Virus record (IMG/VR): IMGVR_UViG_3300025079_000031
Location: 1 to 22,593 of that record
DNA from: a virus
Strand: one strand, 5' to 3'
DNA length: 22,593 nucleotides
The position numbers and the translations under genes were made by a program. The notes beneath the pieces were generated by a model. That model made no database searches. It saw only the letters and a list, made by a program, of their open reading frames with translations, and had not been told where the DNA came from. Below, in pieces: positions 3,789-11,060 of the stretch (position 1 is its first letter; each line of letters begins with the position of its first letter).

Positions 3789-4125
3789 AGTTATTCCTCT
3801 CGTGTAAGTCTATCTGTATGGGGAGATATGTATGCGATTGGCGATCGTATTTTAAAAGATTATATCTGCCACGATTATTTTCTGCAGCAACTGAACAACA
3901 AAGACCAATCATTGATGGATCACCAATCAATAATAAATAATCTTTATCATTAAAATCTTTTAATATATTTTTAGCCTTACGTATCGCTGGTCCAGGTGAT
4001 AACATAATTTGTTTTCCCTCCTCAAATATAGGAATTAGTTTTCCATATTCCTGAGCAGTGATTACATTAAATCGAGATACCTCTTGGATAACGTACACAT
4101 TTCCTTTGTTTTCTAAGTCTTTCAT
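3772..4125 (-). CDS. conserved phage protein of unknown function, first gene of leftward replication block
   Basis: A 117-aa soluble protein. It begins MKDLENKGNVYVIQEVSRFN, then shows ITAQEYGKLIPIFEEGKQIMLSPGPAIRKAK, a loop NDKDYLLLIGDPSMIGLC (about residues 78-95) and YNLLKYDRQSHTYLPIQIDL. This alternation suggests a small alpha/beta fold; the LLLIGDPSMIG stretch looks like a buried strand and turn. I recall similar proteins upstream of SSB-like genes in other marine phages, but no function. It overlaps the following gene by 17 nt and is the first gene of this leftward transcript, next to the divergent SNF2 helicase gene. Confidence 0.62.
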   Translation of the reverse strand: MKDLENKGNVYVIQEVSRFNVITAQEYGKLIPIFEEGKQIMLSPGPAIRKAKNILKDFNDKDYLLLIGDPSMIGLCCSVAAENNRGRYNLLKYDRQSHTYLPIQIDLHERNNYDRES

Positions 4126-6230: not shown

Positions 6231-6331
6231 TTTTGAAGACGTTCATCTATTATTTTACCAATGATGAACACCATAAATCCAATACCGACTAGGGCTAAGA
6301 GTATTAGCCCTAATAAAATATGCGTTATCAT
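6227..6331 (-). CDS. 34-aa single-pass membrane microprotein
   Basis: A 34-codon frame: MITHILLGLILLALVGIGFM then VFIIGKIIDERLQN. The first 26 residues are almost wholly hydrophobic with small residues spaced along the helix, and the tail is charged, predicting one transmembrane segment with the C terminus outside the bilayer. Its ATG overlaps the stop of the preceding frame (ATGA), as seen throughout this operon, which supports real translation; GAAGAG upstream is a weak ribosome site. Its stop overlaps the stop of the opposing gene at 6230. Possible roles, all inference: host membrane takeover, superinfection exclusion or lysis timing. Confidence 0.6.
   Translation of the reverse strand: MITHILLGLILLALVGIGFMVFIIGKIIDERLQN
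6290..6312. other. 9-bp perfect hairpin inside the membrane microgene
   Basis: TAGGGCTAA at 6290-6298 and TTAGCCCTA at 6304-6312 pair perfectly around a 5-nt loop. On the plus strand it lies about 60 nt after the stop of the gene at 6033, and on the minus strand it is inside the 34-codon frame. Neither side has a uniform U run, so it may be a weak bidirectional barrier between converging transcripts, or a by-product of the Leu-Gly-Leu and Ala-Leu codons it encodes. Confidence 0.45.
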
Positions 6332-6468
6332 AATGACTCTTCAACAATCTTTTCTAATTGCATAGGCCTTGATAGCTTTGTTTTCTTACACATCTGATCA
6401 AGCAACTTTCTTGTCTTCGCTGTAATCATTTGATTGTAATGTGTTAATTTTTTCTCTTTCTTTTTCAT
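6328..6468 (-). CDS. 46-aa basic protein resembling a ribbon-helix-helix regulator
   Basis: ATG at 6468 is preceded by AAGGA with a 5-nt gap, a strong ribosome site, although it lies inside the upstream zinc-finger gene (71-nt overlap in a different frame). The product is basic at the N terminus (MKKKEKKLTHYNQ). It then has a short strand-like ITAKT and two helices, TRKLLDQMCKKTKL and SRPMQLEKIVEESL. This order (strand, helix, turn with small/polar residues, helix) is the pattern of Arc/CopG-type DNA-binding proteins. It ends in an ATGA overlap with the membrane microgene. The fold is inferred from pattern only. A repressor acting on the nearby repeat-rich control region is an attractive but untested possibility. 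Confidence 0.52.
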   Translation of the reverse strand: MKKKEKKLTHYNQMITAKTRKLLDQMCKKTKLSRPMQLEKIVEESL

Positions 6469-7803: not shown

Positions 7804-7917
7804 TTAAAATATAAACCAATCTGCAAGTGCAACCAGACTTACAGGTAATGAAAGAGCAAGGTAGATCCAGTCTTCCTTGCTCGCTAATTTAAGATCGTTG
7901 ATAATATATTTAATCAT
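7804..7917 (-). CDS. 37-aa membrane microprotein
   Basis: A 37-codon frame: MIKYIINDLKLASKEDWIYL followed by ALSLPVSLVALADWFIF. The first 18 residues are amphipathic and charged, and the last 19 are hydrophobic and run to the C terminus, as in tail-anchored proteins. GGAGG stands 7 nt before the ATG, and the ATG overlaps the stop of the preceding gene (TAATG). Such tail-anchored phage peptides can act on the inner membrane as holin-like, exclusion or host-takeover factors; which applies is unknown. Confidence 0.6.
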   Translation of the reverse strand: MIKYIINDLKLASKEDWIYLALSLPVSLVALADWFIF

Positions 7918-8120
7918 TATTTTTCCTCCCCAACGAAATCATTAAATTTTAAAAAACAACCTCTTAAAGAATACCATGCATCTCTATGACCTTCTTTTTT
8001 TATCTTGATAAGAACTTGACTACCTTTACTTACGTAGTCTCCACCAACAAGCCATTTATTATTTACTTTTTCTGCTCTAACTCTTTCACCGTTTAGTAGG
8101 GCTTCGTATACTTTTTTCAT
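7917..8120 (-). CDS. small basic protein, beta-rich, unknown
   Basis: A 67-aa protein, MKKVYEALLNGERVRAEKVN, then KWLVGGDYVSKGSQVLIKIKK and a C-terminal YSLRGCFLKFNDFVGEEK. Alternating hydrophobic residues suggest a small beta barrel. AAGGA 5 nt before the ATG supports the start. It is the first gene after a 70-nt AT-rich gap that holds a candidate promoter, with a CAGAAAACAGCC element whose downstream end is 76 nt before the ATG. Its stop overlaps the 37-codon membrane gene. No family recognised. Confidence 0.58.
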   Translation of the reverse strand: MKKVYEALLNGERVRAEKVNNKWLVGGDYVSKGSQVLIKIKKEGHRDAWYSLRGCFLKFNDFVGEEK

Positions 8121-8152
8121 CGCTTCCTTCTTTCTATTTGTTATGTGTTACT

Positions 8153-8181
8153 TATATAGTATTTTATAATATTTTAAAACA
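8153..8181 (-). promoter_or_regulatory. candidate leftward promoter downstream of the shared box
   Basis: Reading leftward, TGTTTT (8181-8176), 17 nt, then TATATA (8158-8153). The -35 is poor, but the region aligns with the one upstream of the gene at 8428-8586: both have CAGAAAACAGCC, 8 nt, GATAA, 22-23 nt, ACTATA. Shared spacing between two otherwise unrelated AT-rich stretches is better evidence than either box alone. Confidence 0.45.
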
Positions 8182-8190
8182 TTTATCTTA

Positions 8191-8415
8191 TTATTGGCTG
8201 TTTTCTGGGGTTTCTAGGGCCTCTATTATTTGTCTAATCCATGAATTTTCATCAATCATTTCAAAGTACAACCACGTACAATATTGATCACTTAAATTAC
8301 CTTGTAGGAATTCATCGTACCTACAGTCGCGCATGAAGGTTTGGTAAGGCGTATGATAGACATAAAGGTAACAACATACGCCCACCGTGATACACGCGAC
8401 TACCAACTTAATCAT
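8191..8415 (-). CDS. small membrane-anchored or exported protein
   Basis: A 74-aa protein starting MIKLVVACITVGVCCYLYVY, a hydrophobic segment of about 18 residues that would act as a signal anchor. The rest, about 55 residues, is polar with three aromatic clusters and cysteines C31 and C46 that could pair in the periplasm. The ribosome site is weak (GAGAAAG). Its last codons contain one of the AACCCCAGAAAACAGCC repeats, so the repeat is coding here and a control element for the next gene. Function unknown; a membrane-located host-takeover or exclusion factor is possible. Confidence 0.55.
   Translation of the reverse strand: MIKLVVACITVGVCCYLYVYHTPYQTFMRDCRYDEFLQGNLSDQYCTWLYFEMIDENSWIRQIIEALETPENSQ
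8196..8212 (-). promoter_or_regulatory. shared 17-bp upstream element, copy A
   Basis: Leftward reading AACCCCAGAAAACAGCC, identical over 17 bp to copy B at 8659-8675; the inner CAGAAAACAGCC recurs on the plus strand at 9203-9214. The downstream end is 76 nt before the ATG at 8120. Likely a binding site for an activator or phage transcription factor. Confidence 0.62.
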
Positions 8416-8427
8416 CTTTTTTCTTTC

Positions 8428-8586
8428 TCATTTTTTATCCTTATACTTTTTGATTAATTGTTCGTTAGTACTATCATCAACAAAATAAGTATAACCATTC
8501 ATTTCAATACGTAAGGCATCTTCTGCTGTTACAACAATAACCATCTTGCCTATTTCTATTTTAGTTTTTTTGTTATTCTTTCTCAT
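8428..8586 (-). CDS. 52-aa small early protein, unknown
   Basis: A 52-codon frame with AAGGAG 6 nt before the ATG, a near-perfect ribosome site. The product starts MRKNNKKTKIEIGKMVIVVT, continues AEDALRIEMNGYTYFVDD and ends in a lysine-rich helix (QLIKKYKDKK). It looks like a small beta-hairpin domain with basic ends and no membrane segment, possibly nucleic-acid binding. It is the first gene after a promoter-like stretch with copy B of the shared upstream box. No family recognised. Confidence 0.62.
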   Translation of the reverse strand: MRKNNKKTKIEIGKMVIVVTAEDALRIEMNGYTYFVDDSTNEQLIKKYKDKK

Positions 8587-8614
8587 AACTTTCTCCTTTA
8601 TGTTTATATAATAA

Positions 8615-8642
8615 TTTATAGTGATTTATTATATATATACAA
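8615..8642 (-). promoter_or_regulatory. candidate leftward promoter for the 52-aa gene
   Basis: Reading leftward, TTGTAT (8642-8637), 16-nt spacer, TATAAA (8620-8615). A TATAAT also occurs slightly upstream. The predicted leader is about 20-30 nt and contains the AAGGAG ribosome site. It lies at the same distance below a CAGAAAACAGCC box as the promoter at 8153-8181. Confidence 0.45.
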
Positions 8643-8658
8643 TACTTATCGATATTAT

Positions 8659-8675
8659 GGCTGTTTTCTGGGGTT
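8659..8675 (-). promoter_or_regulatory. shared 17-bp upstream element, copy B
   Basis: Leftward reading AACCCCAGAAAACAGCC, the same 17 bp as copy A. It begins at the stop codon of the nuclease gene (TAA at 8676-8674), and its downstream end is 73 nt before the ATG at 8586. Here most of it is noncoding, so its conservation cannot be explained by protein sequence. Confidence 0.65.
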
Positions 8676-8961
8676 ATTTAAGGGTACAGTTTCCCTCTTC
8701 ATCGACCATTAATATACGTATCTTGAGTTTCTTCTGGAGGTCTGTTTGTGTGCGTGTGATGAGATATCCTTTGTATTTTCCTGACTTGCGTATGCTTGTT
8801 GATTTAACATCAACTAATAATATTTCTCCGTACTCATTGATACCAACGAGATCACAAGGACCTAAGCTTGAGAGATTATCAAAGACATAGTAACCTTGAT
8901 CCGATAAAAATTTAATTGCTTGGATGTGCGATATGAAACCTTTTTGATGTTTTCTATTCAC
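8674..8961 (-). CDS. PD-(D/E)XK nuclease-like protein (Hjc-type)
   Basis: A 95-aa protein with the core of a PD-(D/E)XK nuclease: a helix (HIQAIKFLSDQGYYVF), then GPCDLVGINEYGEILLVDVKST. The D of PCDLV and the D-V-K triad lie on adjacent strands, as in Holliday-junction resolvases of the archaeal Hjc type and related small endonucleases. The usual D-x(n)-[DE]-x-K spacing is present (about 13 residues). It may cut branched DNA before packaging or degrade host DNA. The start is a GTG with no Shine-Dalgarno, and no internal ATG would keep the domain. A good sigma-70-like promoter predicts transcription starting at or next to that GTG, so the mRNA may be leaderless. Confidence 0.68.
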   Translation of the reverse strand: MNRKHQKGFISHIQAIKFLSDQGYYVFDNLSSLGPCDLVGINEYGEILLVDVKSTSIRKSGKYKGYLITRTQTDLQKKLKIRILMVDEEGNCTLK

Positions 8962-8967
8962 TTGATT

Positions 8968-8996
8968 AATATAGCATCAGTGATGATAGGTGTCAC
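8968..8996 (-). promoter_or_regulatory. strong candidate promoter, leftward, for the nuclease gene
   Basis: Leftward GTGACA (8996-8991; 5 of 6 matches to TTGACA), exactly 17 nt, then TATATT (8973-8968; 5 of 6 to TATAAT) preceded by TGC, an extended -10. The predicted start, 7 nt further, is 8961, the G of the GTG start codon. The -35 abuts tandem CGTGRTC repeats. Confidence 0.62.
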
Positions 8997-9016
8997 GTGG
9001 TCCGTGATCCGTGGTT
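8996..9016. repeat. three tandem 7-mers CGTGRTY at the leftward promoter
   Basis: CGTGGTC, CGTGATC and CGTGGTT stand head to tail at 8996-9016, in a patch much richer in G+C than its surroundings. The first copy touches the -35 box of the leftward promoter, a position typical of an operator. Similar short words occur elsewhere in coding DNA of this window. Confidence 0.5.
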
Positions 9017-9019
9017 CAC

Positions 9020-9185
9020 CTTACACTACTTACACCTTTTCCGACCCCTTTTAAAAAAAAAAAATTTAAAAACGAAATACTAGTGTAAGGTGTGTCAGGT
9101 AGACAAAATAATCGTTTGTTTAAGCCATAAACTACCTTACACTTGTCGAGTTTTAGTAGTGTAAGCCTTACACTAGTAGTGTAAG
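9020..9185. repeat. cluster of seven CTTACAC/GTGTAAG sites (iterons or operators)
   Basis: The 7-mer occurs at 9020-9026, 9029-9035, 9136-9142 and 9167-9173 as CTTACAC, and at 9083-9089, 9159-9165 and 9179-9185 as GTGTAAG. The last three form two overlapping perfect palindromes: TAGTGTAAG-c-CTTACACTA (9157-9175) and CCTTACACTA-g-TAGTGTAAGG (9166-9186). A run of T4A12T3A5 at 9048-9072 lies among them. Seven copies in 166 nt cannot be chance. The cluster lies in the 324-nt noncoding gap 8962-9285 between divergent transcripts, so it should be an operator array or a replication origin with iterons and an unwinding element. Confidence 0.72.
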
Positions 9186-9202
9186 GTAAAAATATTGATT
9201 GG

Positions 9203-9214
9203 CAGAAAACAGCC
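9203..9214 (+). promoter_or_regulatory. shared upstream element, copy C (plus strand)
   Basis: CAGAAAACAGCC on the plus strand, the 12-bp core of copies A and B. Its downstream end is 72 nt before the ATG of the terminase small-subunit gene at 9286, matching the 73 and 76 nt of the other copies. The flanks are not conserved with A and B, so the core is the functional part. Confidence 0.62.
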
Positions 9215-9223
9215 ATTTTGTTC

Positions 9224-9252
9224 TTTGCACCACGAGGAAAATAATTTATATG
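9224..9252 (+). promoter_or_regulatory. candidate rightward promoter for the packaging module
   Basis: TTTGCA (9224-9229), 17 nt, then TATATG (9247-9252). The predicted start is near 9259, at the beginning of the word TATAAAGAGGGT. The promoter is imperfect in both boxes, as expected for one that needs the upstream element at 9203-9214. Confidence 0.45.
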
Positions 9253-9258
9253 TTGATT

Positions 9259-9270
9259 TATAAAGAGGGT
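9259..9270 (+). promoter_or_regulatory. TATAAAGAGGGT word, copy 1
   Basis: The same 12-mer occurs at 11039-11050, and in both places it stands just before a terminase gene (15 nt before the ATG at 9286, 10 nt at 11061). The A/T-to-G pattern resembles the start-site end of single-subunit phage RNA polymerase promoters (TATAGGGAGA), but it could also be a leader or late-promoter element. Confidence 0.45.
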
Positions 9271-9285
9271 TAGAAATAGTGTATT

Positions 9286-9825
9286 ATGGTTAAAATAATT
9301 GATGGAAGAAAATCACGCAAGTTAACACCAATGCAATTACGATTTGTTTATGAGTTTTGTACTAAGACATTAATGGGTTTGCAATCTGCATCTGAGTCTG
9401 CGCGTAAAGCAGGATACTCTGACTCTGCAGCTAGAAGATCTGCTTGGGAGTTACAAGATCCAAAGAAATATCCATTGGTTGCTGAGGCTATCTACGATAT
9501 GAAAAAAGAACTAGCAGATAAGTATTCTGTTAGTATGGATAAGCATGTTGCAAGGTTAGATAATCTTAGTAAAAAAGCTGAAGATGAAAAACATTATGCA
9601 GCAGCGATCAATGCTGAGGCTTTAAGAGGTAAGGCTGCAGGATTGTATGATCCAACAATAAGAATGGAGAGTGCTGTTGAGAACTTACCGCGCGATCAAC
9701 TATTGCAAAAACTAAGTGAACTACAACGCAAAGGAATTCCAATTGTTAATGAAGAGAATGTCATTGAACAAGAAGAGACTAAGCCTGAACCAAAACTAAT
9801 TGAACAAGAAAAGAGTAATGACTAG
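9286..9825 (+). CDS. terS: terminase small subunit
   Basis: A 179-aa protein that recognises phage DNA for packaging. Residues 14-60 contain the small-terminase helix-turn-helix pattern: LTPMQLRFVYEFC, then SASESARKAGYSDSAARRSA and ELQDPKKYPLVAEAI, the 'AGYS..sAr..A..LL..P.V...I' layout of this family. A central coiled-coil oligomerisation region follows (VARLDNLSKKAEDEKHYAAA), with a Glu/Lys-rich tail that would contact the large subunit. It opens the rightward module and is likely driven by the promoter at 9224-9252. No strong Shine-Dalgarno is visible (only GTGTATT upstream). Location 1.2 kb before TerL, with three small genes and a structured element between, is compatible with this role. 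Confidence 0.82.
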   Translation: MVKIIDGRKSRKLTPMQLRFVYEFCTKTLMGLQSASESARKAGYSDSAARRSAWELQDPKKYPLVAEAIYDMKKELADKYSVSMDKHVARLDNLSKKAEDEKHYAAAINAEALRGKAAGLYDPTIRMESAVENLPRDQLLQKLSELQRKGIPIVNEENVIEQEETKPEPKLIEQEKSND

Positions 9826-10850: not shown

Positions 10851-11060
10851 GGGATTATTTATTAAAAACGTTAGGGTACCTGTGAATTATGAGAAAAATG
10901 GCTTGTTTCCGCCATTATCTACCACCTCATTTCACCCACGGTAACGCACGGCGAGTAGGCTAAGACCATGTTTCAAATTTTCAGCCATCAATTTTTCATA
11001 TGAAACACTTTTTTATAGGGTATACCCCTTTTTTTTAGTATAAAGAGGGTAGGAGTCCCA
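10851..11060. promoter_or_regulatory. TerL leader: hairpins, palindrome and shared 12-mer
   Basis: This stretch before TerL holds no gene. It has a hairpin AATGGC-(8 nt)-GCCATT (10897-10916), a 7-bp inverted pair TGTTTCA (10969-10975)/TGAAACA (11001-11007), a perfect palindrome GGGTATACCC (11018-11027) followed by a run of eight T, and TATAAAGAGGGT (11039-11050), also present before TerS. AGGAG at 11051-11055 is the TerL ribosome site. Palindrome plus T run could terminate upstream transcription or bind a regulator. Confidence 0.5.
11039..11050 (+). promoter_or_regulatory. TATAAAGAGGGT word, copy 2
   Basis: Second exact copy of the 12-mer seen at 9259-9270. It is followed directly by the AGGAG ribosome site and the TerL ATG 10 nt downstream. 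If it is a promoter, the TerL mRNA would start very close to its Shine-Dalgarno. Confidence 0.45.

Follow-up and report, generated by a model that had tools for sequence, protein, structure and literature searches.

A 12-bp box at a fixed distance from sigma70-like hexamers marks probable portable promoters in relatives of Pelagibacter phages HTVC023P and HTVC027P

Three copies of a 12-bp word near the terminase genes

The window analyzed here, a whole stretch of viral DNA of 22.6 kb, represents part of the genome of a relative of the Pelagibacter phages HTVC023P and HTVC027P, a placement based on its terminase, portal and primase proteins (terL ~61% identical). Small leftward genes and rightward packaging genes abut at 8961-9286. 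As the first-pass annotation had stated, the window contains three exact copies of the word CAGAAAACAGCC, here termed A and B (both on the minus strand) and C (on the plus strand), and no further copy was found in it (Table 1). The three copies are not a product of chance, since none of 200 first-order Markov simulations of the window gave any 12-mer with at least six G/C three times. Copy A overlaps the last codons of an upstream ORF, and copy B was correctly described as mostly noncoding, being intergenic. The distances from the word to the ATG codons, previously given as 76, 73 and 72 nt, were end-to-start differences, and the true gaps are 75, 72 and 71 nt. Likewise, the stretch shared by A and B, reported as 17 bp, is 18 bp long (AACCCCAGAAAACAGCCA). 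In both copies GATAA begins 8 nt past the word and is followed by ACTATA at 22 and 23 nt, in agreement with the original description.

Table 1. Positions of the word copies, associated hexamers, dyads and genes in the window
Feature	Position	Strand	Remarks
Arc/CopG-like (ribbon-helix-helix, RHH) 46-aa protein	6328..6468	-	candidate binding partner; conserved across relatives
67-aa ORF behind promoter A	7917..8120	-	no family match; other genes at this place in relatives
Promoter A, -10-like hexamer TATAAG	8151..8156	-	17-nt spacer; predicted from sequence
Promoter A, -35-like hexamer TTTTAA	8174..8179	-	16 nt after box; phase common to non-redundant promoters
Box, copy A, CAGAAAACAGCC	8196..8207	-	overlaps 3' end of ORF 8191-8415
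52-aa ORF behind promoter B	8428..8586	-	replaced by unrelated genes in relatives
Promoter B, -10-like hexamer TATAAA	8615..8620	-	16-nt spacer; predicted likewise
Promoter B, -35-like hexamer TTGTAT	8637..8642	-	16 nt after box; phase common to non-redundant promoters
Box, copy B, CAGAAAACAGCC	8659..8670	-	3 nt past stop of ORF 8674-8961
Copy C, 16-bp perfect dyad TGGCAGAAAACAGCCA	9200..9215	+	word at 9203-9214; upstream of terS
terS, terminase small subunit gene	9286..9825	+	phrog_51, E 6.5e-12; downstream of copy C
Related dyad TGGCTTGTTTCCGCCA	10899..10914	+	one mismatch to TGGCNGNNNNCNGCCA; upstream of terL

Several other elements occur in the same region. In the 166 bp between the leftward genes and terS (9020-9185), TAGTGTAAG occurs on both strands, five times exactly and once as a near copy, and these repeats are also present upstream of terS in relatives; they are possibly origin iterons or a second operator set. 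The sequence TATAAAGAGGG lies shortly before the start codons of both terS and terL (9259-9269 and 11039-11049), perhaps as a late-promoter -10 or as ribosome-binding context. Upstream of terL, TTTCAAATTTTCAGCCATCAATTTTTCATATGA (10965-11010) is nearly unchanged in diverged relatives and is possibly a packaging site.

Recurrence of the word and anatomy of the probable A and B promoters

Loci of relatives were gathered via terL and terS protein similarity, and further loci via the DNA pattern; the unbiased set comprises the 117 loci obtained through terminase-protein similarity only. These 117 loci contained 45 occurrences of the word, spread over 25 contigs, whereas 300 permuted words averaged 0.2 occurrences. 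Of the copies, 42 were followed by sufficient sequence to be testable, and 36 of these had an ORF starting with ATG 69-80 nt downstream, compared with 13 of 59 for permuted words. The check suggested in the first-pass annotation, namely a search of relatives for many copies at 65-80 nt before start codons, was accordingly positive. Among the six copies lacking an ATG at 69-80 nt, five represent the terL-upstream site and the sixth is in locus L160. There, the box promoter at 3836 (minus strand) has its ATG at 60 nt, with TTGACA and ATG both 12 nt nearer the word, a shift of roughly one helical turn. A site orthologous to copy A was present in three relatives (L009, L010 and G001). The word was absent from the isolates HTVC023P, HTVC027P and 023Pt_psg01, even allowing one mismatch, and we found no promoter motif in the literature on this phage group. 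Pattern matches in five loci outside the family (L112, L116, L119, L121 and L122) were discarded, as they are not at promoter distance and look like chance.

Copies A and B form part of a module consisting of CCCAGAAA(AC/TT)AGCCA, exactly 16 nt, a sigma70-like -35 (TTG/TTT), 16-17 nt, and usually a TATAAR-type -10. When all sites and their close variants were clustered at 80% identity, 12 of the 25 clusters had TTG or TTT at an offset of exactly 16 nt downstream of the word (next best offset, 4 of 25); these clusters share ancestry and are therefore not independent trials, and the phase is partly inherited. Pairwise identity among 14 non-redundant promoters was 88% in the word, 71% in the 5 nt before it, 63% in the 16-nt linker, 59% in the -35 and 46% both in the spacer and in the sequence farther upstream. 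CAGAAATTAGCC is found at the same 16-nt phase in more distant relatives, one of which, L161, has the consensus TTGACA; L031, L113 and L161 show a less distinct -10. GATAA was considered as a constant second element and rejected, because it is missing in L044, L047 and L147 despite an intact 16-nt phase, and it is also absent from copy C. What stays constant in relatives is instead the 16-nt spacing between the word and the -35.

Both A and B have hexamers within the 16-18 nt separation of sigma70-type promoters, and both also have, at a constant spacing upstream of the -35, the kind of conserved site that characterizes activator-dependent phage promoters. TATAAG in A and TATAAA in B, which overlap or adjoin ACTATA, appear to be better -10 candidates than ACTATA itself. 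A generic sigma70 scan gave 9 sites against 8.2 in shuffles, with no excess and with A and B unlisted; the two were missed because their hexamers are far from consensus, which fits weak hexamers and lends the promoters no support. HTVC027P encodes no RNA polymerase of its own and uses the host enzyme (PMC12753301). In the same phage, upstream of gp33/gp34, reported as early-to-middle (L015 16750-17800), CAAGCTTCAAG-type repeats stand directly before TTGACA; these repeats are a different upstream element in a similar place.

We selected 80 promoter sites, requiring a -35-like hexamer and allowing 50-94 nt to the ATG. They precede genes for 41 distinct proteins, which group into 18 families not linked to one another by blastp at E 1e-3, and the ATG distance is 69-80 nt in all but one of these families. 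Because it stands before 18 unrelated gene families, the module can be regarded as a portable promoter for exchangeable accessory genes. In family searches most box-downstream genes were without known function; ParB-like and DNA methyltransferase proteins are among those encoded near boxes in relatives. The 62-kb relative G001 (L123-L126) has a gene for a Mom-like DNA modification protein and, at L123:2507-3271, one for a ParB-like protein. Taken together, these observations make it very probable that A and B belong to a conserved, portable promoter. The earlier proposal of a promoter-linked control element is strongly supported for A and B by orientation, distance, the 16-nt phase and the 18 families; this support does not extend to copy C, which lacks the phasing.

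Symmetric sites and a candidate binding protein

Copy C needs to be treated separately from A and B, since it is without their -35 phasing and is symmetric like the terL-upstream site. The latter is the one site in the window, beyond copy C, within one mismatch of TGGCNGNNNNCNGCCA (0.06 in shuffles). In relatives the centre of the terL-upstream dyad is AAAA, AAAT or TTTT, and the changes between the AAAA and TTTT orientations are expected of a site that is read symmetrically. In one relative, G002, the word is inverted before a type-A promoter, with its centre still 15 nt from GATAA. A common dyad for all copies was tried and rejected, because the upstream half of A and B reads CCC, not TGG. 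A and B retain the downstream half only (CAGCCA), and the terS sites of many relatives retain only the TGGCAG half. As A and B are asymmetric in their upstream half, a dimer site there is conjectural.

The most attractive phage-encoded candidate partner of the box is the 46-aa Arc/CopG-like protein. Its AlphaFold (AF2) model (pLDDT 84) has helices at 17-30 and 34-45 and an extended N-terminus, with no strand in the monomer, where the Arc/CopG fold has one ahead of its two helices. Foldseek returned Arc and CopG as top matches with weak E values of ~0.7-0.8 (TM 0.67-0.70), and Pfam RHH_1 and TraY reached only E 0.12-0.18. The fold may be that of Arc and CopG, with which the sequence identity is 13-18%; these two are repressors, whereas the present protein is a putative binder of the box. 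The RHH-like 46-aa protein occurred in all eight searched records with the strict box-promoter pattern, the pattern occurred in none of nine records without this protein, and three records, including G003, carry the protein without the pattern; this co-occurrence is only a lead, as other core genes are distributed alike and shared ancestry confounds it. Changes in the RHH strand showed no clear correspondence with the AC-to-TT change in the box. Among the families listed for the 62 G001 proteins there was no HTH regulator and one ParB-like protein.

Interpretation of the box and comparison with known systems

Upstream regulator sites are known from other phages. The late promoters of P2 and P4 are bound by Ogr/Delta, a zinc-finger activator, at a TGT-N12-ACA site near -55. 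Like the module described here, they are phage promoters that the host polymerase uses and whose regulator site lies around -55 to -60, but they differ from it in site sequence, in serving late genes and in their zinc-finger activator. The box contains no TGT-N12-ACA dyad, and no Ogr family was present among the 25 of 34 Pfam families listed for the 62 G001 proteins. In T4 middle promoters, the MotA box takes the place of the -35, at about -30. There too, a gene class is marked by a short box at a set distance from the -10, whereas the present module keeps a -35-like hexamer and has its box farther upstream. The nearest published parallel is found in archaeal viruses, which share an early-gene regulatory sequence whose later shut-off was ascribed to Aca8 (PMC11065993). 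In rudiviruses such as SIRV2, as here, one regulatory sequence stands before many unrelated small accessory genes and can be used as bait; they differ in having an archaeal TATA/BRE core and the wHTH repressor Aca8, in place of sigma70-like hexamers with a box upstream of the -35 (PMC11065993).

In A and B, the box probably serves as the activator site of a sigma70-type promoter module. Its position makes a phage-encoded activator, as proposed in the first-pass annotation, plausible, and the modified host sigma factor offered as an alternative is unneeded, because sigma70-type -35/-10-like hexamers with 16-17 nt spacing are present. The box could instead be a repressor operator through which strong early promoters of accessory genes are silenced as infection proceeds, in the way that Aca proteins repress anti-CRISPR operons. 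This is a possible though rather unlikely reading. The swapped accessory genes behind one regulatory sequence do resemble the arrangement at the archaeal-virus early-gene motif (PMC11065993), the Arc/CopG-like fold of the candidate protein is rich in repressors, and the consensus -35 of L161 would need no activator. However, 16 nt separate the box from the -35 downstream of it, which is beyond the usual reach of steric repression, and A and B have the weak -35 hexamers that activated promoters should show.

That the same box stands at the same locus with different genes behind it in relatives would suit a recombination linker, a conserved boundary for cassette exchange; such a linker predicts neither the fixed -35 distance nor a word conserved above linker and spacer, and it adds little, given that conserved promoters act as linkers anyway, so we regard it as improbable. 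The 18 bp and similar layout common to A and B could reflect recent duplication of one promoter region, with descent and not selection behind their similarity. This is very improbable: the word persists where terS identity is only ~70-75% and neighbouring letters have largely changed, so that conservation above the flanks in diverged relatives, which duplication does not predict, is already observed, and a 13-bp version lies on the opposite strand before terS. In A and B the word lies where the preceding genes end, which might suggest a leader RNA element or a terminator of the gene before it; we consider this equally improbable. Folding around the sites was no stronger than in shuffles (z +0.39 to -1.17), no Rfam family matched the window and, with the -10 as placed, the box would be outside the downstream transcript. 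Finally, copy C and the terL dyad are intergenic around the terminase genes and beside the TAGTGTAAG repeats, as packaging or replication signals with incidental proximity to start codons would be; this view leaves unexplained the constant distance of A/B-type sites before 18 gene families and is hardly credible.

Under the activator reading, the lineage would place the module before exchangeable, mostly leftward accessory genes, and the -35/-10-like hexamers would form an active promoter. The box centre would lie near -59 from the inferred start, with a regulator protein bound there that presumably activates host RNA polymerase rather than repressing it. Dimeric class I type activators bind near -59. 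Since copy C is a full symmetric version and the terL dyad is similar, this protein may have a further role at the packaging genes. In the complete scheme, the 46-aa protein would bind the box near -59, activate the host polymerase at accessory promoters and time packaging via the terS and terL dyads. This is speculative and, as a whole, unlikely; if it were true, one small regulator would link host-takeover genes and packaging.

A phage promoter with an upstream regulator box is of a known kind, and this box would be a new example. Its fixed phase offers a direct handle on gene regulation in these phages. The box can further serve as sequence bait for exchangeable accessory genes, among which anti-defence genes may be expected.
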